In this document: piece by piece, positions 1,723 through 20,553 of the stretch
Numbering within the stretch: the first letter of the stretch is position 1
Layout: the number at the start of each line of letters is the position of its first letter
Assembly: GCA_947178475.1 (NCBI GenBank)
Contig: CAMWYM010000021.1
Coordinates: forward strand, 1 to 34,126
Direction of reading: 5' to 3'
Length of the DNA: 34,126 nt
Origin: an uncultured Clostridium sp.
GTDB lineage: Bacteria > Bacillota > Clostridia > Lachnospirales > Lachnospiraceae
Translations under genes and position numbers: made by a program
Notes under the pieces: generated by a model
Told to the model about the DNA's origin: nothing
The model's input: the letters and a program-made list of their open reading frames with translations, nothing else
The model's database searches: none

Positions 1723-1770
1723 GGGATTTTTTGTCGGTTGAGAAGAGAAGGGGAGTAAGGAGAGCCTGCG

Positions 1771-2523: not shown

Positions 2524-2550
2524 CGATGATGTGGAAGAGAGGGGATTGTC

Positions 2551-4470
2551 ATGCATATTGGAGGCAGATTACTTGGTGGATATGATGCACATTTACAAGA
2601 GAATGTAAGGACAGAAAATGTCAAAGGCACAGATCAGATTAGTCAGACACAGCCCTCGGCAGATATATCAGGATTAAGAGAAGGTGCAGTATTTAAAGGG
2701 GAAATTCTGGATATTTCCGGAGAAAAGGTTACCATTGCACTGATGAATCAGGCGAATCTCAGCGCCAGACTGCAGGGGGATGTAAGTCTGGGTGTAGGTG
2801 ATCAGCTTCTTTTTTCAGTGAAGGAGAATAACGCCAGTCAGATTTTGATTAAACCGATGTTTGATTCGCTGTATAGTGCCCAGACGCAGGTTTTGGAAAA
2901 GGCTCTGGATGCTGCGGGTTTGTCTCCGACAGAGAAAAATTTTACTGCGGCAAAGGAATTGATGGAGGCCGGAATGCCAGTGGATAAAGCAGGGCTTGTC
3001 AAAATTTTATCCCAGAGCATGAAATATCCTGAGGCTTCCATGCAGACGCTGGTTTCTCTTAACAAAATGAATATTCCGGTAACAGAGGCAAATATAGCAC
3101 AATATGAACGTTATCAGAGCTACAGTCATCAGCTTAGCGGTGATATTGGTCAGGCGGCAGACAGTATGGCTTCTTTTACGGAGGCGTTTCCTGCGGGGAC
3201 ACCAGGTGCCGTTTTGCTATCGACAGCCGGAGAAATACTGGATATGTTTATGCAGGATATGGCAAAGGGAGAGGAAACGATTCTTAATCCTGAAGGGGAA
3301 AACCGGACGGCTGGACAGAGTGAGGCAGGAGCAGCAGAGAATTTAAATACCGGTGAAAAGACAGTTGTGGAAGCTGAGTCGGTTATTTCCAAGGAGAATA
3401 GTACTGTGTTGTCCGGAGAACAGGCAGTGGAGTTTATTACGAATGCAGAGGATAAAACAGTTGAGGAAACAGGACAAAATATAGATAAGCAGTCGGTAAA
3501 GATATCGGAACAGGAAGTCACTGGACAGTCTCAAAAGACAGTTGCAGAGGCGGAGAACAGACCGGCTGATACCCTCACAGCAGACAGGGAAGAGGTGTCA
3601 AGGGCTGGGGAGAAAAAAGCCGATACAGGAAATACAGAGCTTGGACAGTTTGCAGAGAAAGCGGGACTTTCCAGGGAGGAAGCGGTGAGGCTTACTAACA
3701 CTTTGCAGAAGGCAGGACTTTCCAGAGAAGAGATTACGAATATTCAAAGACAGGCAGATTCTCCGGAGAAAATCTTAAAAGCTATTACACAGGCCTTGTC
3801 CGGTGCAAATGCGGATGATGCAGTGGTAAGAGAGCTTTTACAATCCAATGAATTTAAAAAGATGTTTTCGGATATGATTAAGAAGAATTGGGCACTTAAT
3901 CCAAAGGATATGAAGGACCCGAAAGAAATTGATGAGCTTTATGACAAGATAATGAAGCAGAGTAAGGGCTTTGAGGATACGGTTGCCGCAAAGGGCGGCG
4001 ATGCAAAAAGCTTTAACCAGAATTTTCAGAATATGCGGCAGAACATGCAGTTTATGGAGCAGTTGAACAATCAGATGATATATGCACAGATGCCGTTAAA
4101 ACTTTCTAATCAGAATGCCAATTCGGAGTTGTATGTCTATGCAGATAAGCGCAAGCTGATGGAAAAGAAGGATGGCATCAGCGTTATGCTGCATTTGGAT
4201 ATGGATCATCTGGGCATGACGGACATAAAGGTAACCTTGACCGGCTCTAACGTCAATGCCAGATTTTATTTGAATGATCAACAGAGCGTGGATATTGTCA
4301 CCAATAATATGGCACAGCTGGCAAAGCAGCTTGCAGACAGAGGCTTTTCACTGACTAATGAAGTGGTAAAGCGTCAGCCGCAGGAATCCATCAATAAGGT
4401 GGTGGATGAGATTGTAGATGAGAATGCAGAGAGGAGCATTAAGCGATATACCTTTGATGCCAGAACCTGA
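2551..4470 (+). CDS. FliK-like flagellar hook-length control family protein (YlqG-like)
   Basis: 639-residue protein with a FliK C-terminal-type domain at about residues 525-615. There the segment around ELYVYADKRKLMEKKDGISV runs into LHLDMDHLGMTDIKVTL and a closing helix with MAQLAKQLADRGFSL. The N-terminus has a small beta-rich part, and the middle (about 230-370) is low-complexity, rich in Glu/Ala/Thr/Gln. Hook-length control proteins act as export-apparatus rulers. This gene, however, lies beside rnhB and a free FlhB-type C-terminal domain, as ylqG and ylqH do in Bacillus, away from any flagellar operon visible here. The role of this non-flagellar-locus pair is uncertain. The FliK-type assignment is moderately firm, function is not. 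Confidence 0.75.
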   Translation: MHIGGRLLGGYDAHLQENVRTENVKGTDQISQTQPSADISGLREGAVFKGEILDISGEKVTIALMNQANLSARLQGDVSLGVGDQLLFSVKENNASQILIKPMFDSLYSAQTQVLEKALDAAGLSPTEKNFTAAKELMEAGMPVDKAGLVKILSQSMKYPEASMQTLVSLNKMNIPVTEANIAQYERYQSYSHQLSGDIGQAADSMASFTEAFPAGTPGAVLLSTAGEILDMFMQDMAKGEETILNPEGENRTAGQSEAGAAENLNTGEKTVVEAESVISKENSTVLSGEQAVEFITNAEDKTVEETGQNIDKQSVKISEQEVTGQSQKTVAEAENRPADTLTADREEVSRAGEKKADTGNTELGQFAEKAGLSREEAVRLTNTLQKAGLSREEITNIQRQADSPEKILKAITQALSGANADDAVVRELLQSNEFKKMFSDMIKKNWALNPKDMKDPKEIDELYDKIMKQSKGFEDTVAAKGGDAKSFNQNFQNMRQNMQFMEQLNNQMIYAQMPLKLSNQNANSELYVYADKRKLMEKKDGISVMLHLDMDHLGMTDIKVTLTGSNVNARFYLNDQQSVDIVTNNMAQLAKQLADRGFSLTNEVVKRQPQESINKVVDEIVDENAERSIKRYTFDART

Positions 4471-5253: not shown

Positions 5254-6150
5254 ATGGAATTACAGTATATCAATGAATCAAAAACCTGCAGGATTGAGGA
5301 GAGAAACGGGATACCATATATTACCTTTCCTAAGCTTTCCCAATATGAGGAGGATATGATACACGGTTTTTCCACCCGGCTGGGCGGAGTTTCAAGGGAA
5401 CATCTGGCTTCGATGAATCTGAGCTTTTCAAGGGGTGATGACCGGGAAAATGTAATGGAAAATCACAGACGGTTTGCAGCGGCGTTAGGTTATGATGAGA
5501 AGAGGCTTGTTTTTTCCGACCAGGTTCATCTGACCCGTTTTTACAAGGTGACTGAGGCGGATTGTGGCAAAGGGATTGTCAGGTCTAGCGATATTAAAGA
5601 GATTGACGGTCTTGTCACCGATGAGCCGGGAATCCCTATTATTACTTTTTATGCTGACTGTGTGCCGCTTTTTTTCTATGATCCGGTAAAGAGGGTTATT
5701 GCTATGGCACATTCCGGCTGGCGGGGCAGCGTGGAGCGGATTGGTGCGAGAATGGTAGACTATATGGAGAGGGAATATAGTTGTAAAGGTGAGAATATTG
5801 TCTGTGCCATTGGTCCGTCAATCTGTCAGAGCTGCTATGAGGTTAGTGAGGATGTTGCACTGCAGTTTATTGAGGAGTTTGGTGATAGTATATCTCAGGG
5901 GATACCCGGTAAAGATAGAGCTGATGTTACACTGGATGAATTGGTATGGGCAAAGGGAGAAGGAAAATATCAGTTAAATCTTCACCTTGCCTGTAAAATT
6001 GCGTTGTTGGAGGCAGGGATTCAAAAAGAAAATCTTGACGTGACCGATTTATGTACCTGCTGCAATCCGCAGTTTTTCTTTTCACATCGGGCCAGTCATG
6101 GCATGAGAGGAAACCTTGCAGGAGTGATGATGATAAAGGAGAATAGATGA
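5254..6150 (+). CDS. pgeF: Laccase-domain purine nucleoside phosphorylase/adenosine deaminase (PgeF/YlmD family)
   Basis: 298-residue member of the YfiH/PgeF family, formerly called polyphenol oxidase. Visible zinc-site residues are H92 (SDQVH), C136 (YADCVPLFF) and H153 (AHSGWRG). Other family marks are GFSTRLGGVS near residue 38, AIGPSICQSCYEV and the C-terminal CTCCNPQFFFSHR. Family members have been assigned nucleoside phosphorolysis and deamination activities and an editing role in peptidoglycan synthesis. Which applies here cannot be read from sequence. It follows yraN by 26 bases and probably ends the first transcriptional run. Confidence 0.9.
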   Translation: MELQYINESKTCRIEERNGIPYITFPKLSQYEEDMIHGFSTRLGGVSREHLASMNLSFSRGDDRENVMENHRRFAAALGYDEKRLVFSDQVHLTRFYKVTEADCGKGIVRSSDIKEIDGLVTDEPGIPIITFYADCVPLFFYDPVKRVIAMAHSGWRGSVERIGARMVDYMEREYSCKGENIVCAIGPSICQSCYEVSEDVALQFIEEFGDSISQGIPGKDRADVTLDELVWAKGEGKYQLNLHLACKIALLEAGIQKENLDVTDLCTCCNPQFFFSHRASHGMRGNLAGVMMIKENR

Positions 6151-6223
6151 GGTTACAATGACCGGTTTGCAGACCGGTAACACAAATAATGAAGGATTAT
6201 CGTTTAGGATAAGGAGGGTAATG

Positions 6224-7153
6224 ATGATTAACACATTAGTAGAAAAGATTTCCAATTTAAATGCACCGGTGGTGGTAGGCTTAGATCCGATGCTTGATTA
6301 TGTGCCGTCTCATATTCAGAAAAAAGCATTTGAAGAGTACGGAGAGACTTTAGAGGGGGCTGCGGATGCTATCTGGCAGTTTAATAAAGGAATTGTGGAT
6401 GCTGTCTATGATTTGATTCCGGCAGTAAAGCCGCAGATTGCCATGTATGAGCAGTTTGGAATACCGGGACTTATGGCATTTGAAAAGACCTGTGCCTATT
6501 GTAAGGAAAAAGGTCTTGTTGTGATAGGAGATATCAAAAGAGGGGATATCGGTTCGACTTCAGGGGCTTATGCCACCGGTCATTTAGGAAAGGTACAGGT
6601 GGGAAGTAAAAGATATTCCGGTTTTTCAGAGGATTTTGTAACGGTGAATCCGTATCTTGGAACAGATGGGGTAAAGCCGTTTGTAGATGTCTGTAAGGAG
6701 GAGAATAAAGGGATTTTTGTATTGGTTAAGACTTCAAATCCCTCTTCAGGCGAGTTTCAGGACCAGTTAATCGACGGTACGCCTTTATATGAGCTGGTAG
6801 CAAGGAAGGTAGTAGAGTGGGGAGCGGAATGCATGGGCGATACCTACAGCAATGTGGGATGTGTAGTCGGTGCGACATATCCAGAGATGGGAAAGGTGCT
6901 CCGTAAAATGATGCCAAAAACTTACATCCTAGTACCCGGTTATGGTGCTCAGGGAGGTAAGGCTGAGGATTTGGTGCATTATTTTAACGAGGATGGACTT
7001 GGTGCGATCGTAAATTCATCAAGAGGAATCATTGCTGCTTATAAACAGGAAAAGTATGCAAACTTTGGAGCAGAGAATTTTGCAGATGCATCCCGTCAGG
7101 CGGTAAAGGATATGATTGCGGATATCACCGGAGCAATCGGGAAGGACGTATAA
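6224..7153 (+). CDS. pyrF: Orotidine 5'-phosphate decarboxylase, subfamily 2
   Basis: Final step of UMP synthesis: decarboxylation of OMP. I place the start at 6224, giving 309 residues, because AAGGAGG (6211-6217) lies six bases upstream. An open frame extends back to 6158 but has no ribosome site, and 6221 is also an ATG. The catalytic lysine-aspartate array is in VIGDIKRGDIGST. VVGLDPMLDYVP opens the barrel, and GAIVNSSRGIIAAY near the end belongs to the phosphate-binding region. The length of about 300 residues fits the long (type 2) bacterial OMP decarboxylases rather than the E. coli-like short form. It heads a pyr cluster with pyrK and pyrD downstream. Confidence 0.94.
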   Translation: MINTLVEKISNLNAPVVVGLDPMLDYVPSHIQKKAFEEYGETLEGAADAIWQFNKGIVDAVYDLIPAVKPQIAMYEQFGIPGLMAFEKTCAYCKEKGLVVIGDIKRGDIGSTSGAYATGHLGKVQVGSKRYSGFSEDFVTVNPYLGTDGVKPFVDVCKEENKGIFVLVKTSNPSSGEFQDQLIDGTPLYELVARKVVEWGAECMGDTYSNVGCVVGATYPEMGKVLRKMMPKTYILVPGYGAQGGKAEDLVHYFNEDGLGAIVNSSRGIIAAYKQEKYANFGAENFADASRQAVKDMIADITGAIGKDV

Positions 7154-7240
7154 ATCCGTAATGTTAATATGCGTTGCTTGTGGCAATCAGTAGATTTGTG
7201 ATACCTTGGGGATATAAAAAATAAATGGAGGTATGCAGAT

Positions 7241-7837
7241 ATGCTTAGTGAAAATCTAAAAATAATCCGTAAAGAAAAAGGAATGTCACAGGAAATGCTG
7301 GCACAGCAGATAGGAGTTGTCAGACAAACTGTATCAAAATGGGAAAAGGGACTATCTGTTCCCGATGCAGAAATGCTTGTACGGATAGCAGATTTATTTG
7401 AAGTTTCGGTTGAAAACCTTTTAGGCGAAAAGCTTGAGGAAAAAGAGAACACTAATGAGGTGGCTGTACAGCTTGCAGTGCTTAATGAATATCTGCTAAA
7501 CCGGAGTAAGAGAAGACGCAGAATTTGGAAGAGCATAGGGATTGTGATTCTTGTCCTGTTAATTTTGTATATATGTATGTGGGTTATGAGGGTTCCAATA
7601 TCCTCAGATATAGAGACAGGATATACGACAAAACTGGTGTGTACATTGGATGGTGAAGAATACCAATATGAAATTGTCTATGACGAGCAGGATGAGGTTT
7701 GGTCAGACGGAGGAGATGACTTTATTACAGAGTATATTTTGAAGCCGGAAACTGCATTGAATGCAAAGGAAAGGATTTCAGTGATTGAGGATTATTTTAA
7801 GGAGCATGGGGGAACCTGTGAACGGATTGAGGAATAA
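7241..7837 (+). CDS. XRE-family helix-turn-helix protein with membrane anchor
   Basis: 198 residues. An XRE/Cro-type DNA-binding domain occupies about residues 5-62, with the turn and recognition helix around LAQQIGVVRQTVSKWEKG. An acidic linker and a basic cluster (KRRRR, about 90-94) follow, then a single membrane segment at about 98-116 and an extracytoplasmic tail of about 80 residues. Proteins of this type are common one-component regulators in Clostridia. Its 87-base upstream gap carries GGAGG just before the start and at best a weak promoter. It sits between pyrF and pyrK without an obvious pyrimidine role. No ligand or target site was recognised. Confidence 0.88.
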   Translation: MLSENLKIIRKEKGMSQEMLAQQIGVVRQTVSKWEKGLSVPDAEMLVRIADLFEVSVENLLGEKLEEKENTNEVAVQLAVLNEYLLNRSKRRRRIWKSIGIVILVLLILYICMWVMRVPISSDIETGYTTKLVCTLDGEEYQYEIVYDEQDEVWSDGGDDFITEYILKPETALNAKERISVIEDYFKEHGGTCERIEE

Positions 7838-7859
7838 AGAGACAGCAGGAGGAGAGTGT

Positions 7860-8624
7860 ATGTGTGCAGTAAAGACAAAAGCGGTGGTAAAGCAGCAGGA
7901 GTCGCTTGCCAGAGATATTTACAGTCTGGTTTTAAGTGTGCCGGAGATTGCAAAGGAGGCACGGGCAGGGCAGTTTGTATCCCTATATTCAAGAGACGGT
8001 TCTAAGCTTTTGCCAAGACCAATCAGCCTTTGCGAGGTGGAACAGGAAAAAGGCTTGATTCGTCTTGTATACCGCATAGCAGGCTTTGGGACAAAGGAAT
8101 TTTCAAAGCTTCAGGCAGAGGATACCATAGAAGTTATGGGACCTTTGGGAAATGGGTTTGACAAAAAGGATAAGAGGGCAGTTTTGATTGGCGGCGGAAT
8201 TGGAATCCCGCCGATGTTAGAACTGGCAAAGGAGCTTAGCTGTGAAAAGAGTATTGTCGTGGGTTTTCGGGATGAGACATTTTTGCTGGATGATTTGAAA
8301 AAATATGGCAGCGTTTATGTGGCCAGCGAGGATGGAAAAACAGGTGTACGGGGAACGGTATTGGATGCCATAAAGGAATATGGAATTGAGGGAGATATCA
8401 TTTATGCCTGCGGTCCAACGCCGATGCTTCGCGCAGTTAAGGAATATGCCTTGGCAAATGATATAGAGGCACAGCTTTCCCTGGAAGAGAAAATGGCATG
8501 TGGAATCGGCGCCTGTCTTGCCTGTGTCTGCAAATCGACGGAAGTGGATGGACACAGCCATGTGCATAATAAGCGGATTTGCAAGGACGGTCCGGTGTTT
8601 GATGCAAGGGAGGTGGAAATCTAA
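7860..8624 (+). CDS. pyrK: Dihydroorotate dehydrogenase B electron transfer subunit
   Basis: 254-residue FAD and [2Fe-2S] subunit that passes electrons from PyrD to NAD+. The ATG at 7860 is chosen because AGGAGG (7847-7852) sits seven bases before it. An open frame reaches back to 7785 but overlaps the XRE gene. FAD is bound at R53-PIS and NAD at GGGIGIPPM. Iron-sulfur ligands are C214, C219, C222 and C241, in CGIGACLACVC plus a later cysteine. It overlaps the pyrD start by one base (TAATG), indicating translational coupling. Confidence 0.96.
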   Translation: MCAVKTKAVVKQQESLARDIYSLVLSVPEIAKEARAGQFVSLYSRDGSKLLPRPISLCEVEQEKGLIRLVYRIAGFGTKEFSKLQAEDTIEVMGPLGNGFDKKDKRAVLIGGGIGIPPMLELAKELSCEKSIVVGFRDETFLLDDLKKYGSVYVASEDGKTGVRGTVLDAIKEYGIEGDIIYACGPTPMLRAVKEYALANDIEAQLSLEEKMACGIGACLACVCKSTEVDGHSHVHNKRICKDGPVFDAREVEI

Positions 8625-9526
8625 TGAATTTAGCAGTTAATATTGCGGGAGTGGAATTTAAAAATCCGGTAACAGTGGCTTCAGGAACCTTCGGTTCCGG
8701 TGCCGAGTATGGCGATTTTGTGGATTTGAATAAACTGGGAGCAGTTACGACCAAAGGGGTTGCAAATGTTCCATGGCCGGGCAATCCCACACCGCGGATA
8801 GCAGAGACCTATGGCGGGATGATGAATGCTGTAGGGCTTCAGAATCCGGGCATTGATGTGTTTTGTAAGCGGGATATTCCGTTTCTTAAGCAGTACAATA
8901 CCAATATTATTGTAAATGTGTGCGGAAAGTCTGAAGCAGATTATGTAGAGGTAGTGGAGCGTCTGGCGGACGAGGATGTGGATTTGTTAGAGATTAATGT
9001 TTCCTGTCCCAATGTCAAAGAGGGCGGTATTGCCTTTGGTCAGAATCCACAGGCATTAGAGCAGATTACAAAGGCAGTGAAGGCAAAGGCAAAGCAGCCG
9101 ATTATTATGAAATTAAGTCCGAATGTAACGGATATAACAGAGATGGCAAGGGCAGCGGAAGCCGGCGGGACAGATGCTTTGTCATTGATTAATACCTTAA
9201 CCGGAATGAAAATCGATATTAATCGCCGTGATTTTGCTATTGCAAATAAGACGGGGGGGCTTTCCGGTCCTGCGATTAAGCCGGTTGCAGTTCGCATGGT
9301 ATATCAGGTGGCAAATGCGGTCAAACTCCCGATTATAGGCATGGGCGGTATTATGAATTACGAGGATGCGATAGAATTTATGATGGCGGGTGCCTCTATG
9401 GTATCGGTTGGTACGGCTAATTTTCATAATCCGTATACGACGGTAGAGATTATAGAAGGCATTAAGAGCTTTATGGAGCAAAAAGGCATAGAAGATATCC
9501 ATGAGATAATCGGCTGTGTTAAATGA
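8624..9526 (+). CDS. pyrD: Dihydroorotate dehydrogenase B catalytic subunit
   Basis: 300-residue FMN-containing class 1B enzyme that oxidises dihydroorotate to orotate. The active-site cysteine is C128 in NVSCPNVKEGG. A cysteine base marks class 1 enzymes, and the adjacent pyrK marks class 1B. FMN-phosphate contacts are in MGGIMNYEDAIEFMMAGASMVSVG. The N-terminal block VASGTFGSGAEYG is typical. Carbamoyl-phosphate and dihydroorotase genes are not in the window. The stop lies inside the left arm of a hairpin shared with the convergent DUF1292 gene. Confidence 0.97.
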   Translation: MNLAVNIAGVEFKNPVTVASGTFGSGAEYGDFVDLNKLGAVTTKGVANVPWPGNPTPRIAETYGGMMNAVGLQNPGIDVFCKRDIPFLKQYNTNIIVNVCGKSEADYVEVVERLADEDVDLLEINVSCPNVKEGGIAFGQNPQALEQITKAVKAKAKQPIIMKLSPNVTDITEMARAAEAGGTDALSLINTLTGMKIDINRRDFAIANKTGGLSGPAIKPVAVRMVYQVANAVKLPIIGMGGIMNYEDAIEFMMAGASMVSVGTANFHNPYTTVEIIEGIKSFMEQKGIEDIHEIIGCVK

Positions 9527-9855: not shown

Positions 9856-12297
9856 CTAAGAATTGATTTTTAATAACTCAATAAATTCATTTTCTGATAT
9901 TGCCTGACTAAAGAAATACCCCTGCAGAATGTCACAGGTTTCGTTTTGCAGGACTCTCAACTGTTCAATGGTCTCTACGCCCTCTGCAATGACAGAAATG
10001 CCAAGATGGTGGGCAAGATTAATGATTGTACCGGCAATATAAGAATCCTTCTCGTCGTCTGAAATGCCGGAAATAAATGATTTGTCAATCTTTAGCGTAT
10101 TAATTGGAATTTTTGTTAAATAGTTAAAGGAAGAGTATCCGGTTCCAAAATCATCGAGAGCAATCTGAACACCCAGCTCCCGTATCTGGTTAATGAGTGC
10201 CATGTTATGGTCAAAATTTTTCATTAATATGCCTTCTGTCAGCTCTATTTCCAGATATTTTAATGGCATGGAAGTCTTTTCCGGAAGAGCTTTAATGACA
10301 TTGATAAGGCTGTTGTTCCGTAATTGGATAGTGGATACATTAACGGAAATCTTTATTGGTTTGAATCCGGCTTCCATCAGGCGATGGTTAAAGCGGCAGG
10401 CTTCAATCAATGCCCATTCTCCTAACTGGTCGATTAGCCCGCATTCCTCGGCTACCGGAATAAATTCATCCGGAGAGACAAAGCCTACAATAGGAGAATT
10501 TAAACGCATCAGCGCCTCGCATCCGAGTATTTCACCGGTGGACACGTCGGCCTGTGGCTGGTAAAGCAGATAAATATCTTTATTGTCTATGGCATCATGT
10601 AAGATATCAATCAGGTCATTCCTGCGGTTCACTTCATCCTCCATGGATGAGCTGAAAAAGGTATAGCTGTTCTTGCCGGTATTTTTGGATGCATACATGG
10701 CAATATCGGCATTTTTCATCAGCTCGTTTAAGGATAGTCCGTTTTGTGGGAACAGGGCAGCACCGGCACTTAAAGTAATATGGACAGTTTCATCCTCCAA
10801 TACAAAAGGGTGGGAAGCAATGGAAACCAAGGTATCTAAAAATTCCTCCAACTCTTCTCTACTGTTTATCTGATTTCTCAGGATAACAAATTCATCTCCA
10901 CCGTTTCTGGCAAGAATATCATCTTTGTTGATGAAGGAGCTCAGCTTAGAGGAAACAGCCTGTAGCAGCAAATCTCCGTAATCGTGTCCCAGGGTATCGT
11001 TGATGGACTTGAAGCCATCTAAATCGATAAAGATAACGGCGTGGTTTCTGAACCCTTTGCCGTTATTGTTGGAGAGTATCTCCTGCGCATATTTGAAAAA
11101 GGCCATACGGTTATAAAGTCCGGTCAGTGCATCTGTATATGCCAGTTTTTCAATATCCTCATAGCTGTATTGCAGCTCTCTCTGACTGATTTCCAATGCT
11201 TTACGAGATTCCAAGACCTCCTTGTAGTTGGTGGAAATAATATCCATCATCTGATTAAAATTGTTAGAAAGGGTTCCAAATTCGTCATCCCGTTCCATAT
11301 TGCATTGCACATCTAACTGACCGTCGGCAGCATTCTGCATTTTTTCACTGAGCTCGATAATCGGCTGAGTGTATTTAACGGCAAGGCTTCTGCTAAGCTG
11401 GCTGGATAAAATCGTTACGATGATCAGAACCACCAGCAATAGTATAGGAAGACTGGATACAATGTTCGTGTAGGTTGACGGATCCCGTATAGTAACGTAA
11501 AGCCAGTTGTAGTCTGGAACAAAGGAATATCCGCAGATATAATCCATGCCGTCAGAAAATGTGCCGGGGAGAATTCTGTTGAGGGAAATCTCCCCATTCC
11601 CGATACCGGAGAGCTGCTTGAGATTTTCGAATAGCTTTGTGTTGTGGGATTCAATAGTATAGCCGAACATTGGTCTGCCGTCAGTGTCTATAATAAAGTT
11701 CTCCTGTTTATCAGATGTGGAGAGATAGGTGCCAAAATAGTCTATTGTAATATTCGTGCGGATTAATCCGATAATGGAATTATTTACCATAATTGGAGAA
11801 ATAATATCCAGCGTATTCTGTGTGAATTCAGAATGCGGGAGAATGCAGGTTGCAGTATAAGTGTCAACCGGCTGTTCCATGATTTCTGTCCAGTCGGCCG
11901 ACGAAACAGAGGAGGAGGACAGCACCAGATAGCCGTCCACATCATAGATGTAATAGCTGACTGTGTTATCGAAATCGGCAGAAATTTGTTCTATGGAAGC
12001 CTTGACACTATTGTAATTTGCAGAAGTGGTTTTGAGCAGGGTGTCCGGAGTATTGACTTTTTCCAACAGATAGTTTCTCAGCTCGTTGGAGCTGGCAAGA
12101 GAGGTTGTCTCGATAATCTGTGATTTGAGCTGGTTAGAAAAGGCACAGCTATAGTCATAGGCAATATTTTTAATATTTTCCGTGTTAATCTCCGCATATT
12201 TTGTCGTTGCTGCAACATAGGCAAAAACAGCCATAAGGATTACAGGAATTACTGCCATTAACAGGATAGAGTTTTGCAATGATTTTTTAATCGGCAT
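9856..12297 (-). CDS. Membrane GGDEF-EAL protein (diguanylate cyclase/phosphodiesterase) with sensor domain
   Basis: 813 residues. Membrane segment at about 10-30; extracytoplasmic Cache-like sensor about 31-280; second membrane segment about 281-302; HAMP about 303-360; GGDEF domain about 385-550; EAL domain about 560-813. The cyclase motif GGDEF is intact at 466-470, but the product-inhibition RxxD position reads NKDD (457-460). EAL phosphodiesterase residues look complete: E594-A-L, NVS, ELTE, DDFGTGYSSF, a later IAEGVE and QGYFFS. Both making and breaking c-di-GMP are therefore possible, with the sensor choosing the balance. It is divergent from the MshEN/CheX-like gene and followed by the DUF1292 gene. 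Confidence 0.95.
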   Translation of the reverse strand: MPIKKSLQNSILLMAVIPVILMAVFAYVAATTKYAEINTENIKNIAYDYSCAFSNQLKSQIIETTSLASSNELRNYLLEKVNTPDTLLKTTSANYNSVKASIEQISADFDNTVSYYIYDVDGYLVLSSSSVSSADWTEIMEQPVDTYTATCILPHSEFTQNTLDIISPIMVNNSIIGLIRTNITIDYFGTYLSTSDKQENFIIDTDGRPMFGYTIESHNTKLFENLKQLSGIGNGEISLNRILPGTFSDGMDYICGYSFVPDYNWLYVTIRDPSTYTNIVSSLPILLLVVLIIVTILSSQLSRSLAVKYTQPIIELSEKMQNAADGQLDVQCNMERDDEFGTLSNNFNQMMDIISTNYKEVLESRKALEISQRELQYSYEDIEKLAYTDALTGLYNRMAFFKYAQEILSNNNGKGFRNHAVIFIDLDGFKSINDTLGHDYGDLLLQAVSSKLSSFINKDDILARNGGDEFVILRNQINSREELEEFLDTLVSIASHPFVLEDETVHITLSAGAALFPQNGLSLNELMKNADIAMYASKNTGKNSYTFFSSSMEDEVNRRNDLIDILHDAIDNKDIYLLYQPQADVSTGEILGCEALMRLNSPIVGFVSPDEFIPVAEECGLIDQLGEWALIEACRFNHRLMEAGFKPIKISVNVSTIQLRNNSLINVIKALPEKTSMPLKYLEIELTEGILMKNFDHNMALINQIRELGVQIALDDFGTGYSSFNYLTKIPINTLKIDKSFISGISDDEKDSYIAGTIINLAHHLGISVIAEGVETIEQLRVLQNETCDILQGYFFSQAISENEFIELLKINS

Positions 12298-12442: not shown

Positions 12443-12510
12443 GCTAATGGTTAGTGAGATTTGAATATACATATTATATGAAGATAATATAAGAATACAA
12501 GGAGGCTATT

Positions 12511-13401
12511 ATGTTTGGTGTATATTTCGGTAAATATCTGCAGGATAAGGGGATTTTGACGAATGAGCAGTATGAATCGATTATGTCGGATAAGGAAAAC
12601 ACCAGAGTGAAAATGGGACTGCTTGCAGTGGAAGCTGGATATATGACCAATGCACAGGCTGAGGAGGTCAATACATTGCAGCAGCTTCAGGATAAACGTT
12701 TTGGTGACATTGCAATAGAAAAGGGTTATCTGTCAGAAGATGAGGTCCAAGATTTGTTGGAGCGGCAGGGAGATGAATATTTGCTATTTGTACAGGCTTT
12801 GATTCAACATGACATTCTGACATTAGAACAGATTCAGACGGAGTTGAATACATATAAAAAGACGGCACATTATACTGCATTGGATATGGAAGCACTGAAG
12901 AGCGGTGATGTTGATCGGATTGTGCCTATTTTTATCAAAGACGGTTCAATTCCGCAGATTATGAAGGATTATGTTGCGCTTACGGCAAGAAATATTGTCC
13001 GGTTTATTGACCGTTTCTTCAGAATGGAAAAGGTGGAGCGGATTACAGATTACACCACTCCCTTTGTTGCTGCACAGGAATTGATAGGCGATTACAAGAT
13101 GTTTGCCGGATTTTGTGGTGAGGGGGAGGGAATTAAGAAAATTGCGGAGGAGTTTGCCGACGAATTGTTTGATTGTGTGGATATAGATGCTCTGGATGCG
13201 GCATGTGAATTTCTTAATTGCAACAATGGGCTCTTTGCGCGAAAGCTCAGCGATGAAAATGTAGAGGTTGATATGTGTCCGCCTATTATGAAAAGTGAGA
13301 AGACGATTATTCGTTCAAAGGAGGATATGTTCAAAATATCCTTTTATGTGAAAGATTCTGCTGTAGATTTGCTCCTTGGTTTTGGGACCGAATTGAGCTG
13401 A
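12511..13401 (+). CDS. Four MshEN-like repeats fused to a CheX-like phosphatase domain
   Basis: 296 residues, not a family I can name as a whole. Residues 5-115 hold four 24-residue repeats (5-28, 34-57, 63-86, 92-115), each separated by exactly five residues. Within each unit, positions 3 and 10 are usually Gly, 12 is Leu/Met, 21 mostly hydrophobic and 24 often Gln. The two middle copies fit best (K34/G36/G43/Q57 and R63/G65/G72/Q86). This spacing is that of the c-di-GMP-binding MshEN domain of type II secretion/pilus ATPases. Residues about 130-296 resemble CheX, with E233 and N236 in an ExxN motif followed by Gly, the signature of CheC/CheX/FliY phosphatases of phospho-CheY. The downstream cheY supports this. 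c-di-GMP binding is inferred only. Confidence 0.75.
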   Translation: MFGVYFGKYLQDKGILTNEQYESIMSDKENTRVKMGLLAVEAGYMTNAQAEEVNTLQQLQDKRFGDIAIEKGYLSEDEVQDLLERQGDEYLLFVQALIQHDILTLEQIQTELNTYKKTAHYTALDMEALKSGDVDRIVPIFIKDGSIPQIMKDYVALTARNIVRFIDRFFRMEKVERITDYTTPFVAAQELIGDYKMFAGFCGEGEGIKKIAEEFADELFDCVDIDALDAACEFLNCNNGLFARKLSDENVEVDMCPPIMKSEKTIIRSKEDMFKISFYVKDSAVDLLLGFGTELS

Positions 13402-13463: not shown

Positions 13464-13823
13464 ATGGCAAGGATTTTAATTGTAGATGATTCTAGGACAT
13501 CGCGGAAGATATTAAAGGGAATATTAGAAAGTGAAGGATATGAGATAATTTGTGAAGCGACTAACGGTCAGGAAGGCTATGAACGCTATGTGGAGCTGAA
13601 ACCGGATGTGGTGACGATGGATATCACGATGCCGGTATTAGACGGAATTGAGGCATTGAAGAAGATTAAAAGTGAGTTTCCTGAGGCGAAGGTCATTATG
13701 GTCACTGCAGCAGGACAGCGGACAAAGATGGTGGAGGCAGTGCAGAACGGGGCAGATGAGTTTGTCAGCAAGCCCTTTGAACCGGATCAGCTCAAGAAAA
13801 TTATTGACAAGGTGGCAGGATAA
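13464..13823 (+). CDS. cheY: Stand-alone CheY-like response regulator
   Basis: 119-residue single receiver domain with no output domain. Acidic pocket D8, D9; phosphoacceptor D53 (VTMDITMP); T81; conserved K103 (VSKPFEP). The ATG at 13464 gives the standard MARILIVDDS start, whereas the frame continues back to a GTG at 13431 with no support. The ribosome site (AAAGGA) is about 11 bases away, a little long. It lies 62 bases after the CheX-like gene and before a strong terminator, so the two probably form one transcript. The cognate kinase is not in the window. It may be a flagellar CheY or serve another output. Confidence 0.93.
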   Translation: MARILIVDDSRTSRKILKGILESEGYEIICEATNGQEGYERYVELKPDVVTMDITMPVLDGIEALKKIKSEFPEAKVIMVTAAGQRTKMVEAVQNGADEFVSKPFEPDQLKKIIDKVAG

Positions 13824-13958: not shown

Positions 13959-14020
13959 AAATAGTAATAACTACGGTTATATAAATACGAATTTATGTGG
14001 TGATACCTCAGGAGGACGAG

Positions 14021-17000
14021 ATGAGTAAGGTTAAGAGAGTATATGTTGAGAAAAAGCCTGAATATGCGGTGAAGGCAAAGGAGCTGTATAATGAGCTGAC
14101 GGAATATCTGGACTTGAAGCTGGAGAAGGTCAGAGTGCTGGTTCGCTATGATGTGGAGAATATATCTGACAGTACCTATGAAAAGGCTCTTAGGACTGTA
14201 TTTTCTGAGCCTCCGGTAGACTTTGTGTATGAGACTGCATTTCCCTTTGAAGAGGGAGATTATGTGTTTTCTGTGGAGGCGCTTCCCGGACAGTTTGACC
14301 AGAGGGCGGATTCGGCAGAACAGTGTATTAAGCTGTTAAATGAAAAAGAGGAGGCGGTTGTACGCTGTGCTGCTACCTATGTGCTGACCGGGAATGTCAG
14401 TGAGGAGGAATTTGCAAAAGCTAAGGCATATTGCATCAATCCTGTGGATTCACGAGAGACAGATGATGAGCAGATACCGGAAACATTAATCCAGAAATTT
14501 GAAGAGCCTGCAGATGTGGAGCTTTTTGATGGTTTTAAGGATATGGCAGAGGGTGAGCTTAGAGGTCTGTATGATTCACTGGGACTTGCCATGACATTTA
14601 AGGATTTTCTTCATATACAGAATTATTTTAAGAAGGAGGAAAACAGAGACCCTTCAGTGACGGAAATTCGTGTGCTGGATACTTACTGGTCTGATCATTG
14701 CCGTCACACTACCTTTGCAACGGAGCTTACCAATGTAACCTTTGAGGATGGATATTATAAGAAACCTATTGAAGATACCTATAACCGATATCTGGAAGAC
14801 CGAAAGGTTTTATATAAGGACAGAGAAGATAAGTTTGTCTGCCTGATGGATATCGCTTTAATGGCAATGAAGAAGCTGCGTGCAGACGGCAGGCTGCAGG
14901 AGATGGAGGTTTCAGATGAAATCAATGCCTGTTCCATAGAGGTTCCGGTTATCATTGATGGTGAGGAGGTTATGTATCTGATCCAGTTTAAGAATGAAAC
15001 CCATAACCATCCTACAGAGATTGAACCTTTTGGCGGGGCAGCAACCTGTCTTGGCGGATGTATAAGAGACCCGCTTTCAGGCAGATCTTATGTATATCAG
15101 GCAATGCGCGTAACTGGAGCGGCAGACCCTACCAGAGCACTTTCTGAGACCTTGGAAGGAAAGCTGCCACAGCGGAAATTAGTGACTACTGCAGCTGAGG
15201 GCTACAGCTCCTACGGTAATCAGATTGGACTGGCAACCGGTCTCGTCAATGAGGTGTACCATCCGAATTATGTGGCTAAACGTATGGAGATTGGTGCAGT
15301 GGTGGCAGCAGCGCCGAAGAAAAACGTCAAGCGGCTTACCTCTGACCCGGGCAACGTGATTATTTTGATTGGCGGAAGAACCGGGCGTGACGGTATCGGA
15401 GGGGCAACAGGAAGCTCCAAGAAGCATACCACTCAATCTATTGATACTTGCGGCTCCGAGGTTCAAAAGGGTAATCCACCTACTGAGAGAAAGATTCAAA
15501 GGCTGTTCCGCCGGGAGGAGGTTGCCAGTATTATCCGTAAGTGTAATGATTTTGGTGCTGGTGGCGTCAGTGTTGCCATTGGTGAGCTGGCTGACGGATT
15601 GACTATTGATTTGGATAAGGTACCAAAGAAATATGCCGGATTGGATGGAACAGAGATTGCTATTTCCGAGTCTCAGGAGAGAATGGCAGTTGTTGTGGAT
15701 GAAGAAAATGTAGATAAAATGCTGGCGTACTGCCGGGAGGAGAATCTGGAGGCAGTTGTGGTTGCCCAGGTGACGGAAAGCCCACGCCTTGTCATGACAT
15801 GGAGAGGCAGAGAGATTGTTAATATTGCCAGAAGCTTTATTGATACAAACGGTGCGCATCAGGAAAGTGACGTGACAGTTACCATGCCTGACAAAGAAAA
15901 GGATTATTTTAATCAGAAGGCAGATTTTTCTGATGGAAAAAAGGCATGGCTGGATATTCTTGGAGATTTGAATGTCTGCTCACAGCGAGGGCTGGTGGAA
16001 ATGTTTGACAGCTCCATCGGCGCTGCTACAGTGGTGATGCCTTATGGCGGAAAATATCAACAGACTCCGATTCAGACGATGATTGCCAAGCTGCCGCTGG
16101 ATAGCGGTAAATGTGATACGGTTACGATGATGTCCTATGGTTTGGATCCGTTTTTACTAAGCTGGTCTCCTTATCATGGTGCAGTGTATTCCGTGGTGCA
16201 TTCTGTGGCTAAGATAGCAGCTTCCGGTGGTAATTGGAGCAAAATCTATTTTACCTTTCAGGAGTATTTTAAGCGGCTGGGAGAAGAGGCAAAACGATGG
16301 GGTGAGCCAATGGCGGCACTGTTAGGAGCATATTCTGCACAGATGGGATTTGGTCTTGCCTCCATAGGTGGGAAGGATTCCATGTCCGGCTCCTTTGATG
16401 ACATTGATGTACCACCAACCCTTTGCTCCTTTGCGATTGCTGTGGGCAAGGCAGGTGATGTTGTAACACCGGAATTTAAAGAGCCCGGAAATAAGATTAT
16501 TGAAATTGACATTAAGCGGGATGAGTATGGACTTCCTGATTACGGGTATATGAAGGAGATATATGGTGCTCTCTATGAGGATATACAGTCAGGAAAAATT
16601 CAGTCTGCTTATGCGGTTGGCTTTGGCGGTATTGTGGAAGCAGTATCCAAGATGGGCTTTGGTAACGGAATAGGCGCACAGCTTGATACATTGGTTTCAC
16701 CTGAGAAAATGCTTCAGAAAAACTATGGTGCCATAATCTGTGAAGTAAAAGGAAATGATATCCGTGAACTGACTGTGCCAGCGGCGGTAATCGGTAAGAC
16801 AACAGAGGATGGGTGCTTTACCTACGGAGATATTACCGTGACGATGGAGGAAGCGCTGGCTGCATGGACAGGCACTTTAGAAAAGGTATTTCCAACTCTG
16901 TCAGGGGTAAAGCAGGAGAAAGTTCCGGAAAATGTTTATAAAACGGATAACGTGTATATCTGTAAAGAGAAAACCGCTAAACCTAAAGTTTTTATTCCGG

Positions 17001-17776
17001 TATTTCCAGGTACAAACTGTGAGTATGATTCGGCGAGAGCCTTTGAGCGTGCGGGGGCTCAGGTGGAGACATTGGTATTTAAAAATATGACAGAGAGTGA
17101 TATTTTGGATTCTGTGGATGCCTTTGCAAAGGCAATTAGCCAGGCACAGATTATCATGTTTCCGGGAGGCTTTTCTGCAGGTGATGAGCCGGAGGGTTCG
17201 GCAAAGTTTATTGCTGCCGCATTCCGCAACGAGAAGCTGAAGGAGGAGGTCATGAAGCTTCTTGAGGAAAGAGACGGTTTGGCGCTCGGTATCTGTAATG
17301 GTTTTCAATCACTGATAAAATTAGGTCTGCTGCCGTATGGAAGGATTACTTCTCAGAAAGAGGATTCGCCGACACTGACAATGAACAGCATCGGACGACA
17401 TCAGTCCAAAATGGTTTATACAAAAATTGTTACCAATAAGAGTCCGTGGCTTCGAAAGGCTGTGCTGGGTGGAGTATATACCGTGCCGGTTTCCCATGGA
17501 GAGGGACGATTTGTCGCTCCGGCAGAATGGATTGATAAGCTGTTTGCCAATGGGCAGGTGGCGACGCAGTATGTAGATATTAATGGTAATCCGACTATGG
17601 ATGAGAATTACAATATCAATGGTTCTTACGCTGCCATTGAGGGAATTACAAGTCCGGACGGACGGGTTTTGGGCAAAATGGCTCATTCAGAGAGACGCGG
17701 CGATTCAGTTGCAGTTAATATTTATGGTGACCAGAATCAGATGCTCTTTGAATCCGGAGTAGAATATTTTAGATAA
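14021..17776 (+). CDS. purL: Phosphoribosylformylglycinamidine synthase, single-chain (clade II)
   Basis: 1251-residue FGAM synthase carrying synthetase and glutaminase parts in one chain, catalysing the glutamine- and ATP-dependent fourth step of purine synthesis. The ATG at 14021 has CAGGAGG five bases upstream, whereas an open frame reaches back to 13997. DTYWSDHCRHTTF (about residue 225) and GGRTGRDGIGGATGSS (about 451) mark the synthetase. FPGGFSAGDEPEGSAKFI and catalytic C1092 in GICNGFQSL mark the class I glutaminase. Near the C-terminus HGEGRF carries the catalytic histidine. Length and motifs fit the clostridial single-polypeptide type rather than the PurL/Q/S split. No other pur gene adjoins it. 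Confidence 0.97.
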   Translation: MSKVKRVYVEKKPEYAVKAKELYNELTEYLDLKLEKVRVLVRYDVENISDSTYEKALRTVFSEPPVDFVYETAFPFEEGDYVFSVEALPGQFDQRADSAEQCIKLLNEKEEAVVRCAATYVLTGNVSEEEFAKAKAYCINPVDSRETDDEQIPETLIQKFEEPADVELFDGFKDMAEGELRGLYDSLGLAMTFKDFLHIQNYFKKEENRDPSVTEIRVLDTYWSDHCRHTTFATELTNVTFEDGYYKKPIEDTYNRYLEDRKVLYKDREDKFVCLMDIALMAMKKLRADGRLQEMEVSDEINACSIEVPVIIDGEEVMYLIQFKNETHNHPTEIEPFGGAATCLGGCIRDPLSGRSYVYQAMRVTGAADPTRALSETLEGKLPQRKLVTTAAEGYSSYGNQIGLATGLVNEVYHPNYVAKRMEIGAVVAAAPKKNVKRLTSDPGNVIILIGGRTGRDGIGGATGSSKKHTTQSIDTCGSEVQKGNPPTERKIQRLFRREEVASIIRKCNDFGAGGVSVAIGELADGLTIDLDKVPKKYAGLDGTEIAISESQERMAVVVDEENVDKMLAYCREENLEAVVVAQVTESPRLVMTWRGREIVNIARSFIDTNGAHQESDVTVTMPDKEKDYFNQKADFSDGKKAWLDILGDLNVCSQRGLVEMFDSSIGAATVVMPYGGKYQQTPIQTMIAKLPLDSGKCDTVTMMSYGLDPFLLSWSPYHGAVYSVVHSVAKIAASGGNWSKIYFTFQEYFKRLGEEAKRWGEPMAALLGAYSAQMGFGLASIGGKDSMSGSFDDIDVPPTLCSFAIAVGKAGDVVTPEFKEPGNKIIEIDIKRDEYGLPDYGYMKEIYGALYEDIQSGKIQSAYAVGFGGIVEAVSKMGFGNGIGAQLDTLVSPEKMLQKNYGAIICEVKGNDIRELTVPAAVIGKTTEDGCFTYGDITVTMEEALAAWTGTLEKVFPTLSGVKQEKVPENVYKTDNVYICKEKTAKPKVFIPVFPGTNCEYDSARAFERAGAQVETLVFKNMTESDILDSVDAFAKAISQAQIIMFPGGFSAGDEPEGSAKFIAAAFRNEKLKEEVMKLLEERDGLALGICNGFQSLIKLGLLPYGRITSQKEDSPTLTMNSIGRHQSKMVYTKIVTNKSPWLRKAVLGGVYTVPVSHGEGRFVAPAEWIDKLFANGQVATQYVDINGNPTMDENYNINGSYAAIEGITSPDGRVLGKMAHSERRGDSVAVNIYGDQNQMLFESGVEYFR

Positions 17777-17806
17777 AATTATAGGTATTGATAAGGGGAA
17801 AGGTTT

Positions 17807-19291
17807 ATGCAGTATATTGTTACAAAACAGGAAATGCAGGCAATTGATTCCTATACCATTGAGAAAATCGGTATACCAGGAGAGGTGCTGATGGAACGGG
17901 CAGCCATGCAGGTGGTGGCTCAGGTAGAAAAGATAAACACCACTGGTGGGAGAATTCTTATTGCGGTGGAGGCCGGTAATAATGGTGGTGATGGTCTTGC
18001 TACGGGAAGAATCCTTATGGAGCGTGGATATAAGGTAGACATTTTTTATGTCAAGGGAATGACCAAAATCTCACCGAGATTTCAGATTCAAATGGATATT
18101 CTGCACCGCATGGGCGTACGAGTCCGCAGAGCAGTTCCCAACAAGGATTATCATGTAGTGATAGACGGGATTTTTGGCGTTGGGCTTTCCAGGAAAATTG
18201 ATGGGGTACAGGCAAAGGCAATAGAAACCTTGAACCAGATTGATGCGGTGAAAATCGCCATAGATGTTCCGTCCGGAATTGATGCCACCACAGGAGAGAT
18301 TCTCGGAACAGCATTTCGCGCTGATTATACGGTGACCTTCGGTCCGATGAAGATGGGGATGTTCTTTTCTGACGGGATTGATTATTGCGGCAAGATTATC
18401 AGTGCGAATGTAGGTTTTCCAGACATTGCCATTGAGCATGTAAAGCCGGAAATTTATGCCTATGATCGGTCTGATATGAAAAAGCTTCCCAAAAGAATTG
18501 ATAACTCTAACAAGGGAACCTATGGGCGGGTAGCGGTAATTGCCGGAAGTAAAAATATGTCCGGTGCGGCATACCTGTGCGGAAAAGCGGCCTATTCCAC
18601 CGGTGTAGGACTGGTGAAAATATATACTCATGAGAGCAACCGGATGATTATCCAATCACAGCTTCCGGAGGCAGTGATGATGACCTATAATGATTATGAG
18701 GGGGCACTGGCCTGCATTGAGGATGCCATGAAATGGGCTACAGTGATTGTTGTGGGACCGGGACTTGGTGTGGATACCACCTCAGAGCGTATGCTATATG
18801 AGCTGTTGATGAGTGCGGAGGTGCCGCTGGTGGTAGATGCGGATGCCCTAAATATTTTATCCAACAACACGGAATTAATTGATTCTTCGTCAGTGCAGCT
18901 GGTGATGACTCCTCATATGAAGGAGATGAGCCGCCTGATTGGGAAGACGATTCCGGAGATTATGGAGAATCGCTTTGAGATTGCGAAAAGATTTGCAAGA
19001 AAAATGGGAGTGACTCTTGTGCTTAAGGATGCAAAATCCATTGTCACTAATGGTGGAGAGCAGACCTATCTCAATCTTGCCGGAAATAACGGAATGTCTA
19101 CCGGTGGCTCCGGCGATGTGCTTTCCGGAATTATTGCGGGAATGATTGCAGGCGGTCTGGATTTGGAAGAGGCTGCAAAAATGGGAACTTATGTGCACTG
19201 TCAGGCAGGCGATATGGCGGCAGAGCGGAAGGGAAAATATGCAATGCTGGCTTCGGATATTATTGAATGCCTTGGCGAAGTAATGAGATAA
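17807..19291 (+). CDS. nnrDE: Bifunctional NAD(P)H-hydrate epimerase / ADP-dependent dehydratase
   Basis: 494-residue fusion that repairs hydrated NADH and NADPH. The N-terminal epimerase (about 1-215) has the motif GNNGGDG at 57-63 and VIDGIFGVGLSR. The C-terminal dehydratase (about 230-494) begins with KGTYGRVAVIAGSKNMSGAAY and carries the ribokinase-like nucleotide motif GGSGDVLSGIIAGMIAGG near residues 430-450. Fusion of the two is common in bacteria. It follows purL by 30 bases and precedes alr, a frequent Clostridia neighbourhood, although acpS, often upstream, is absent here. Confidence 0.95.
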   Translation: MQYIVTKQEMQAIDSYTIEKIGIPGEVLMERAAMQVVAQVEKINTTGGRILIAVEAGNNGGDGLATGRILMERGYKVDIFYVKGMTKISPRFQIQMDILHRMGVRVRRAVPNKDYHVVIDGIFGVGLSRKIDGVQAKAIETLNQIDAVKIAIDVPSGIDATTGEILGTAFRADYTVTFGPMKMGMFFSDGIDYCGKIISANVGFPDIAIEHVKPEIYAYDRSDMKKLPKRIDNSNKGTYGRVAVIAGSKNMSGAAYLCGKAAYSTGVGLVKIYTHESNRMIIQSQLPEAVMMTYNDYEGALACIEDAMKWATVIVVGPGLGVDTTSERMLYELLMSAEVPLVVDADALNILSNNTELIDSSSVQLVMTPHMKEMSRLIGKTIPEIMENRFEIAKRFARKMGVTLVLKDAKSIVTNGGEQTYLNLAGNNGMSTGGSGDVLSGIIAGMIAGGLDLEEAAKMGTYVHCQAGDMAAERKGKYAMLASDIIECLGEVMR

Positions 19292-19302
19292 TGTGGTATA
19301 AT
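19272..19302 (+). promoter_or_regulatory. Candidate extended -10 promoter at the end of nnr
   Basis: TATAAT (19297-19302) is preceded by TG one base upstream, in the same TGTGGTATAATG context as the promoter at 12437. The -35 candidate TTGGCG (19272-19277) is weak and 19 bases away. It would drive alr separately from nnr. Confidence 0.45.
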
Positions 19303-19334
19303 GTCATCAACTGAACCGAAGCGAGGTTGATGAC
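19303..19334 (+). promoter_or_regulatory. Nine-base inverted repeat in the alr leader
   Basis: GTCATCAAC (19303-19311) and GTTGATGAC (19326-19334) form a perfect stem with a 14-base loop, starting directly after the candidate -10 element. The loop and following bases carry repeated GCGAG. It could be an operator or a leader stem-loop. There is no U-tract. Confidence 0.5.
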
Positions 19335-19389
19335 CTGCGCGAGCATCAGCGAGCTTCATTATGGAAAGATATAGGAGAGTGTGGACAGG

Positions 19390-20553
19390 ATGGACCGGTG
19401 TTACAGGGTTTGGGCAGATATAGATTTAGATGCAATTAGAAAGAATATAAAAACCATGCGGAGCTATATTCCGCATAAAAGTAAGCTCATGGCGGTGATT
19501 AAAGCAAATGCTTATGGACATGGTGCTGTGGAGGTGGCAAAAGCGTTGGATGACCTTGCACAGTATTTCGGTGTTGCCTGCATTGACGAGGCGGTGGAGC
19601 TTAGAAAGGCCGGAATAGACAAGCCGATACTTATTCTTGGTGCAACACATGAGAGCTGGTACGAGGAGGTTGTAGGCTATAATGTCGCACAGACGGTATT
19701 TACCCTTAAACAGGCGAAGGCTTTGTCGGAGACGGCCGGAAAACTTGGCAGGACAGCAGTTATCCATATCAAGCTGGATACCGGAATGAATCGTATCGGT
19801 TTTGCCTGTGGGGAGGAGAGCATACCGGATATTTTGGCTGTGTCAAAGCTTCCTAATTTGAAGGTTGAGGGAATTTTTACCCATTATTTCATGGCAGATG
19901 CGGCAGATAAATCCAGTGCGGAGCGTCAATTAGCCGAATATACAAGGATGGTAGAACTGTTAGAGGAGCAGGGAATGGATTTTTCTATCCGGCATATTTC
20001 TAACAGTGCGGGGATTATGGAGATGCCCAATGACTGCTTTGATATGGTGCGGTCAGGTATTTCCACCTATGGGTTATATCCATCCGAGGAGATGGACAAG
20101 GCTGCATGTGTTCTCTATCCGGCTATGGAATTGAAGAGCCGGATAACCTATGTAAAAACAGTGAAAGCCGGAGAGTCTGTCAGCTATGGCGGCACATATG
20201 TCATGCCAACGGATAAACGGATTGCCACGGTAGGGGTTGGATATGCAGACGGCTATCCGAGAGCGTTATCCAATCGGGGAAGGATGCTTGTTCATGGAAA
20301 GTATGCACCGGTTGTAGGCAGGGTATGTATGGACCAGACGATGATTGATGTCAGTGAAATTTCTGATGTACAGCCCGGTGATGAGGTTGTGCTCTTTGGC
20401 AGACAGGGAGTAAACACATTGAGTGTGGAAGAATTGGCAGAAATGTCATCAAGCTTTAACTATGAGTTTGTTTGTGACGTGAACCGCCGGGTACCCAGAG
20501 TTTTTCACCGTGATGGTAATATTATAGCGGTAAAGAATTATTTAAATTTATGA
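19390..20553 (+). CDS. alr: Alanine racemase
   Basis: 387-residue PLP enzyme making D-alanine for peptidoglycan. The PLP lysine is K38 in AVIKANAYGHG and the second catalytic residue is Y266 in SYGGTYV. RVWADIDLDAIRKNI opens the barrel. The start is ambiguous: a GTG at 19381 is only two bases after AGGAGA, and the ATG at 19390 is 11 bases after it but gives the usual short N-terminus before the WADIDL motif, so I prefer it. It is followed by mazF, as in Bacillus, where the antitoxin gene lies between them. Confidence 0.96.
   Translation: MDRCYRVWADIDLDAIRKNIKTMRSYIPHKSKLMAVIKANAYGHGAVEVAKALDDLAQYFGVACIDEAVELRKAGIDKPILILGATHESWYEEVVGYNVAQTVFTLKQAKALSETAGKLGRTAVIHIKLDTGMNRIGFACGEESIPDILAVSKLPNLKVEGIFTHYFMADAADKSSAERQLAEYTRMVELLEEQGMDFSIRHISNSAGIMEMPNDCFDMVRSGISTYGLYPSEEMDKAACVLYPAMELKSRITYVKTVKAGESVSYGGTYVMPTDKRIATVGVGYADGYPRALSNRGRMLVHGKYAPVVGRVCMDQTMIDVSEISDVQPGDEVVLFGRQGVNTLSVEELAEMSSSFNYEFVCDVNRRVPRVFHRDGNIIAVKNYLNL

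Follow-up and report, generated by a model that had tools for sequence, protein, structure and literature searches.

The window analyzed here is a 34,126-nucleotide stretch of DNA from an uncultured Clostridium sp. of the Lachnospiraceae (contig CAMWYM010000021.1). It contains a gene for a 296-aa protein in which four repeats of the MshEN type are followed by a CheX-type region (Table 1). A ribosome-binding-like aaggagg was read at positions 12499 to 12505, ahead of the open reading frame. A gene for a stand-alone CheY-like receiver lies downstream on the same strand, and a gene for a HAMP-GGDEF-EAL protein lies upstream in the divergent orientation. The flanks on either side (5254 to 9526 and 13997 to 20553) are housekeeping-like, encoding proteins of the laccase and OMP-decarboxylase types, an HTH protein, dihydroorotate dehydrogenase subunits, an FGAR amidotransferase-type protein, a YjeF/NAD(P)H-hydrate dehydratase, and an alanine racemase. 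The signaling genes therefore stand among metabolic genes.

Table 1. Features of the MshEN-CheX locus (positions in the window; res., residues of the 296-aa protein)
Feature	Position	Strand	Basis or remark
Divergent HAMP-GGDEF-EAL protein, GGDEF and EAL motifs intact; may make or degrade c-di-GMP locally	9856..12297	-	PF00990 149 bits, PF00563 223 bits
Gene for protein with four MshEN-type repeats and CheX-type region, 296 aa	12511..13401	+	ORF
Repeat copy 1, res. 5-28, YFGKYLQDKGILTNEQYESIMSDK	12523..12594	+	Degenerate: Gly-3 retained; lacks basic-1 and Gln-24
Repeat copy 2, res. 34-57, KMGLLAVEAGYMTNAQAEEVNTLQ	12610..12681	+	Ligand-type K34, G36, Q57 retained; A50/N54 replace two stacking Leu
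Repeat copy 3, res. 63-86, RFGDIAIEKGYLSEDEVQDLLERQ	12697..12768	+	Relaxed MshEN pattern matched in full
Repeat copy 4, res. 92-115, LFVQALIQHDILTLEQIQTELNTY	12784..12855	+	Degenerate: Tyr-24; lacks either Gly in the window protein
CheX-type phosphatase core (predicted), res. 186-272	13066..13326	+	PF13690 26.2 bits (cut-off 27); family profile to PDB CheX 1squ/1xko
Catalytic-type E-x-x-N (E233, N236), as in CheX/CheC/FliY phosphatases	13207..13218	+	Conservation; 1squ alignment
Stand-alone CheY-like receiver protein, 119 aa from chosen ATG; probable substrate	13464..13823	+	PF00072 113 bits (scanned from 13431)

The initial annotation had described four 24-residue units with exactly five residues between them, and this layout was recovered as first described, with the spacers ENTRV, QLQDK, and GDEYL. 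Across lags of 5 to 79, self-matching of the window protein was greatest at lag 29, with lag 58 (2 × 29) as the runner-up. The BLOSUM62 sum-of-pairs score of the four units was 115, compared to a best-register mean of -102 and a maximum of 8 in 5,000 shuffles of residues 1 to 120; when lags were left free between 24 and 32, the maximum in 1,000 shuffles of the same residues was 3. The residues named for copies 2 and 3 (K34/R63, G36/G65, G43/G72, and Q57/Q86) are indeed present, and copy 4 of the window protein lacks both Gly, having V94 and D101 instead. Measured against the relaxed 11-position MshEN pattern (Wang 2016), copies 1 to 4 satisfy 9, 10, 11, and 8 positions, respectively, copy 3 being the only exact match. 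In the family, 91 of 97 loci were aligned at full length; four whose start was not assigned (L025, L050, L054, and L100) and two that were incomplete (L031 and L101) were left out. Residues 5 to 115 contained a gap in none of the 91 members, window protein counted, and an insertion in one (L095). The arrangement typical of MshEN, two 24-residue motifs joined by a five-residue spacer, is thus found here as four motifs in register, ungapped in 90/91 members.

Kinship of these units to MshE was supported by a family model and by a profile match to MshE in the PDB. NF053729, the NCBIfam model for an MshE-related c-di-GMP motif, scored the whole window protein at 45 bits (cut-off, 38) over two stretches, the best single stretch reaching 37.4 to 37.9 bits, slightly below the cut-off. 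The model matched every member (69/69, window protein included; E ≤ 0.001) of a family alignment, A2, that comprised the window protein and 68 of 79 named-contig proteins with a start (11 omitted as close copies or, in one case, as incomplete). In a profile search of the PDB, A2 retrieved MshE (5htl; E = 3 × 10−5) aligned to residues 30 to 86, that is, to copies 2 and 3, and the window protein as a single sequence found 5htl at the identical place (E = 0.0016). Pfam matches to DUF4388, FumaraseC_C, and RhuM on the N terminus all fell below their cut-offs and were set aside as echoes of helical repeats.

Like the N terminus of Vibrio cholerae MshE (MshEN; PDB 5htl), the array is built of 24-residue units with a five-residue spacer, and its copies 2 and 3 carry the basic residue at position 1, Gly-3, Gly-10, and Gln-24. 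However, MshE has two units followed by an ATPase, whereas the window protein has four followed by CheX. The two also differ in that MshEN has stacking Leu residues where copy 2 has A50 and N54, and PF05157, the Pfam model of MshEN, was absent among the listed Pfam matches of the window protein up to an E value of 10. Several MshEN-type motifs per protein, some of them degenerate and with position 1 not always Arg, also occur in Thermus thermophilus PilF GSPII-A/B/C, with three in GSPII-C, according to the excerpted text of two reports (PMC11731258 and PMC12002112). PilF is a pilus ATPase with its motifs in separate GSPII domains (residues 6 to 150, 164 to 300, and 304 to 476; excerpts of PMC11731258), whereas the window protein has one uninterrupted array with a 29-residue period. 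The initial annotation had called MshEN outside a secretion ATPase unusual, which was too strong: the available sections of Wang et al. 2016 (PMC5013675) list MshEN joined to CheX, CheA, REC, and other domains and mention (MshEN_N)2.

The region downstream of the array is CheX-like, as initially annotated, by its matches to PF13690, to the NCBIfam CheX model, and to CheX structures in the PDB. PF13690 falls just below its cut-off on the window protein itself (Table 1) and matched 56/69 members of A2 at an E value of ≤0.001 (best, 1.3 × 10−11), the window protein among them; the NCBIfam CheX model matched 35/69 at the same threshold, with the window protein outside those 35. The A2 profile aligned residues 199 to 290 to the CheX structures 1squ and 1xko (E about 8 × 10−6), E233 and N236 falling on the E and N of 1squ. 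Across the 91 full-length members, N236 was invariant (91/91), and its partner was always acidic (91/91; Glu in 67, Asp in 24). The CheX structures 1squ, 1xko, and 3hzh, from Thermotoga maritima and Borrelia burgdorferi, share the CheX core and its E-x-x-N with the window protein; their chains of 155 to 172 residues are, however, too short to hold the repeat array. In CheC, CheX, and FliY phosphatases, a conserved Asn and an acidic residue are inserted into the active site of the receiver, as stated in the portion of PMC3035606 consulted. The C-terminal part is CheX kin with the catalytic acidic/Asn pair, and phosphatase function is predicted from its sequence. Separately, the acidic residue was Asp rather than Glu in 22/22 members of a clade in which the receiver gene lies upstream (among L075 to L099).

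The receiver encoded next to the window protein has D8, D9, D53, T81, and K103. In a profile search of both sides of the gene, 85 of 97 loci had a receiver next to the gene or fused with it (54 downstream, 24 upstream, and 7 fused), with none in 11 and a contig edge in 1. This search supersedes a downstream-only count made with one query (54 downstream, 7 fused, 34 none, and 2 without room). Among named contigs, which overlap with these loci, the receiver was downstream in 62 of the 77 with room. Since 30 of the 97 loci come from 24 genomes of one genus, the loci are not independent. In a tree of the 91 members, a single clade (support, 100/99) unites the seven fusions, and a branch with support of 100/100 sets apart the 22 members of the upstream type together with one that has no receiver neighbor; fused and upstream forms thus lie on different branches. 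Linkage to a receiver has outlasted rearrangements of the locus, an argument that the two genes work as a pair. Seven members without a receiver neighbor (L018 to L022, L030, and L033) also group together (support, 100/100); they still have the catalytic pair, and their target may be a receiver whose gene lies elsewhere. One locus (L125, positions 1481 to 3306) carries two MshEN-CheX genes head to tail, each encoding 303 aa, as a local duplication; a receiver gene was not seen immediately downstream of them.

Ligand-type residues were counted copy by copy in 199 distinct N termini, retained from 266 matches once duplicate sequences, rows gapped at more than 12 positions, and a single sequence without a CheX domain had been removed. 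The basic residue at position 1, Gly-3, and Gln-24 were present in 179, 191, and 191 N termini, respectively, in copy 2 and in 180, 188, and 193 in copy 3. The corresponding counts were 0, 192, and 60 in copy 1 and 17, 45, and 0 in copy 4. The first residue of copy 1 was Tyr, Phe, Ile, or Leu in 194/199, and the last residue of copy 4 was Tyr or Phe in 195/199. In the window protein, the MshEN combination of these three residues in both motifs of a pair is found in copies 2 and 3 (K34/G36/Q57 and R63/G65/Q86) and not in copies 1 and 4. All six signature residues of copies 2 and 3 were retained in 166/199 N termini and lost together in 5/199, suggesting that the central pair acts as one site. 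The doubled MshEN of the initial annotation, if taken to mean two ligand sites of equal standing, is not supported by a signature confined to copies 2 and 3 in this set. On per-copy conservation, an array whose four repeats, or whose two MshEN units, are all equivalent was rejected, although fragment scores of two relatives (L075 and L092; see below) do not favor copies 2 and 3. One canonical site with two degenerate flanking units fits the sequences best. Absence of both Gly from copy 4 was rejected as a general trait, since members with an upstream receiver retain Gly-3 in 20/22 and Gly-10 in 19/22; among members with a downstream receiver, Gly-3 was present in 0/51 and Gly-10 in 14/51.

The two triangular Leu clusters of MshEN (positions 2, 17, and 21) are not present in the window protein: M35/V79/L83 is hydrophobic, and F64/A50/N54 includes a polar residue. 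The window protein is therefore a relative of MshEN and not a proven c-di-GMP receptor. Among the 91 full-length members, position 17 of copy 2 was Ala in 52, Val in 27, or another residue, and never Leu; position 21 was Asn in 65/91 (49/51 with a downstream receiver) and Leu in 2/91. In MshE, Leu25 and Leu29 stack guanine (PMC5013675 and PMC12002112, in excerpt), and changes of conserved hydrophobic residues of MshEN weakened binding more than 10-fold (Wang 2016, PMC5013675, in excerpt). With Ala and Asn in place of these two Leu residues in copy 2, binding may be weaker, or a different ligand may be bound.

Which copies pair was addressed with fragments and with couplings. Scored with NF053729, two-copy fragments of the window protein gave 37.9 bits for copies 2-3 versus 26.1 bits for copies 1-2 and 28.0 bits for copies 3-4. 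In two relatives from the upstream clade, copies 3-4 scored best: the values for 1-2, 2-3, and 3-4 were 40.9, 41.6, and 43.5 bits in L075 and 32.9, 28.8, and 41.3 bits in L092, where 2-3 was weakest. In a mean-field coupling analysis of the 199 sequences (effective number, 156), the top 60 inter-copy couplings included 13 between copies 2 and 3, 5 each between copies 1 and 4, 1 and 2, and 1 and 3, and 1 between copies 3 and 4; a smaller run of 138 sequences placed 1-4 (11 of the top 60) ahead of 2-3 (9). Six MshE-type contact positions were also averaged, four taken from the stacking clusters of MshE (PMC5013675 and PMC12002112, in excerpt) and the pairing of position 1 with position 24, taken both ways, chosen additionally. 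The means were 1.12 for 1-4 (1.7% of random sixes as high), 0.98 for 2-3 (3.6%), and 0.50 for 1-2 (7.3%). These above-average values for 2-3 and 1-4 are a weak signal, and in 80% of 60 bootstraps both block pairs ranked above every other one. The 2-3 and 1-4 block maps correlated at 0.06 in an analysis that included the one sequence without a CheX domain, and a common contact pattern is therefore not demonstrated. From these sequence comparisons, copies 2 and 3 likely pair, and a pairing of copies 1 and 4 is suggestive.

The genome that contains the window has 16 GGDEF, 8 EAL, 6 CheW, and two FliMN_C matches, together with four CheC-motif matches in two proteins, and it encodes another MshEN protein. 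Both c-di-GMP signaling and a flagellar/chemotaxis system thus appear to be present. The divergent GGDEF-EAL arrangement is not general: of the 66 related loci with 2,500 or more bases upstream, 20 have it. In three loci of the group without a receiver neighbor (L114, L117, and L118), a same-strand protein of 555 to 564 aa that resembles the window GGDEF-EAL protein (172 to 174 bits) is encoded about 100 bases upstream.

With its four-unit MshEN-type array joined to CheX, the protein is a promising candidate for coupling c-di-GMP directly to CheY-type signaling. We lean, by a little, toward the reading that it is a CheX-family phosphatase for the neighboring CheY-like protein and is tuned by c-di-GMP, with binding and regulation both inferred from the features above. 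The phosphatase, acting on a CheY-like response regulator, would then carry four MshEN-type helix pairs in a row at its N terminus. Copies 2 and 3 would fold together into a single four-helix bundle of the MshEN_N type, with one molecule of c-di-GMP or of a similar cyclic dinucleotide bound to it, and copies 1 and 4 would flank this bundle, perhaps packed on each other. Ligand binding could move the array relative to the CheX domain, altering the rate at which the neighboring CheY-like protein is dephosphorylated. In this way c-di-GMP, made or degraded by enzymes such as the divergent GGDEF-EAL protein, would set the lifetime of the phospho-receiver signal. A more specific, nested version is tentative and, in our judgment, rather doubtful: copies 2 and 3 would form the c-di-GMP site, copies 1 and 4 would close round it as a ligand-free MshEN-like bundle, and a single nucleotide would clamp or free the CheX active site, directly setting phospho-receiver lifetime.

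Alternatively, the array might bind no ligand and serve as a docking or dimerization module that places the phosphatase, e.g., at a chemosensory array or motor. The missing ligand residues of copies 1 and 4 and the loss of both stacking Leu residues from copy 2 are consistent with such a scaffold, and degenerate MshEN domains that do not bind are known in XpsE (PMC5013675, in excerpt) and PilF GSPII-A (PMC12002112, in excerpt). However, a scaffold role alone gives no reason for copies 2 and 3 to keep Gly-3 and Gln-24 in 188 to 193 of 199 N termini and the basic residue in 179 to 180; in 5 the entire signature is lost together, and we regard this alternative as unlikely. Two tandem MshEN units (copies 1-2 and 3-4), each binding c-di-GMP, would agree with the uniform spacing and with the NF053729 matches of the 1-2 and 3-4 fragments, both of which exceed the 2-3 fragment in L092, as 3-4 does in L075; PilF GSPII-B also tolerates a hydrophobic residue at position 1 (PMC11731258, in excerpt). 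This arrangement is nevertheless improbable given that Gln-24 is never found in copy 4 and is found in only 60/199 in copy 1, that copy 1 never has the basic residue, and that couplings between copies 3 and 4 are the poorest of all. Finally, a different cyclic dinucleotide (such as 3′,3′-cGAMP) or a linear product as the ligand, with Asn replacing the guanine-stacking Leu in the half-site of copy 2, seems very improbable beside the abundance of GGDEF/EAL genes in the genome, one of them adjacent, even though the prevalence of Asn at position 21 would be an odd constraint for plain loss and MshEN can also bind cGAMP (PMC5013675, in excerpt).

Should the c-di-GMP-tuned phosphatase reading be correct, c-di-GMP would directly affect how a CheY-type signal is dephosphorylated, and bacteria rich in GGDEF/EAL genes would gain a candidate protein receptor with a defined partner. 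Wang et al. 2016 named the MshEN-CheX association in one main-text sentence (PMC5013675); the domain pair is the one found in the window protein, and the excerpted text gives neither copy number nor partner gene. The pairing itself is therefore already known, and what is new is the uniform four-unit array, its split into central and outer copies, and the receiver partner. Beyond that one-line mention, the titles and abstract openings among the literature matches listed included no study of c-di-GMP acting on CheY-type dephosphorylation in this way, or of a protein like this one. Among the c-di-GMP genes of Leptospira, the excerpted account names one MshEN protein, a GspE (PMC12943098).

Relatives of the window protein are widespread in its own lineage. 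Within the genus, 24 of 26 genomes (own included) had a match at an E value of ≤4.1 × 10−96, the copy in one genome (G012) having an internal stop. At the family level, 125 of 397 sampled genomes had relatives at an E value of ≤1 × 10−20, at least 5 of which cover the CheX region only. Of 398 genomes sampled across the phylum, 11 gave near-full-length matches (E ≤ 1.4 × 10−34); these represent eight other families, a minimum for the spread of the protein beyond its own family. Among the best 80 of 552 named relatives, 47 were labeled Lachnospiraceae, and many came from rumen or colon samples. One contig labeled Bacteroidales (L108, JAMPFJ010000012.1) includes a gene with 64% identity to the window gene, perhaps reflecting a mislabeled assembly.
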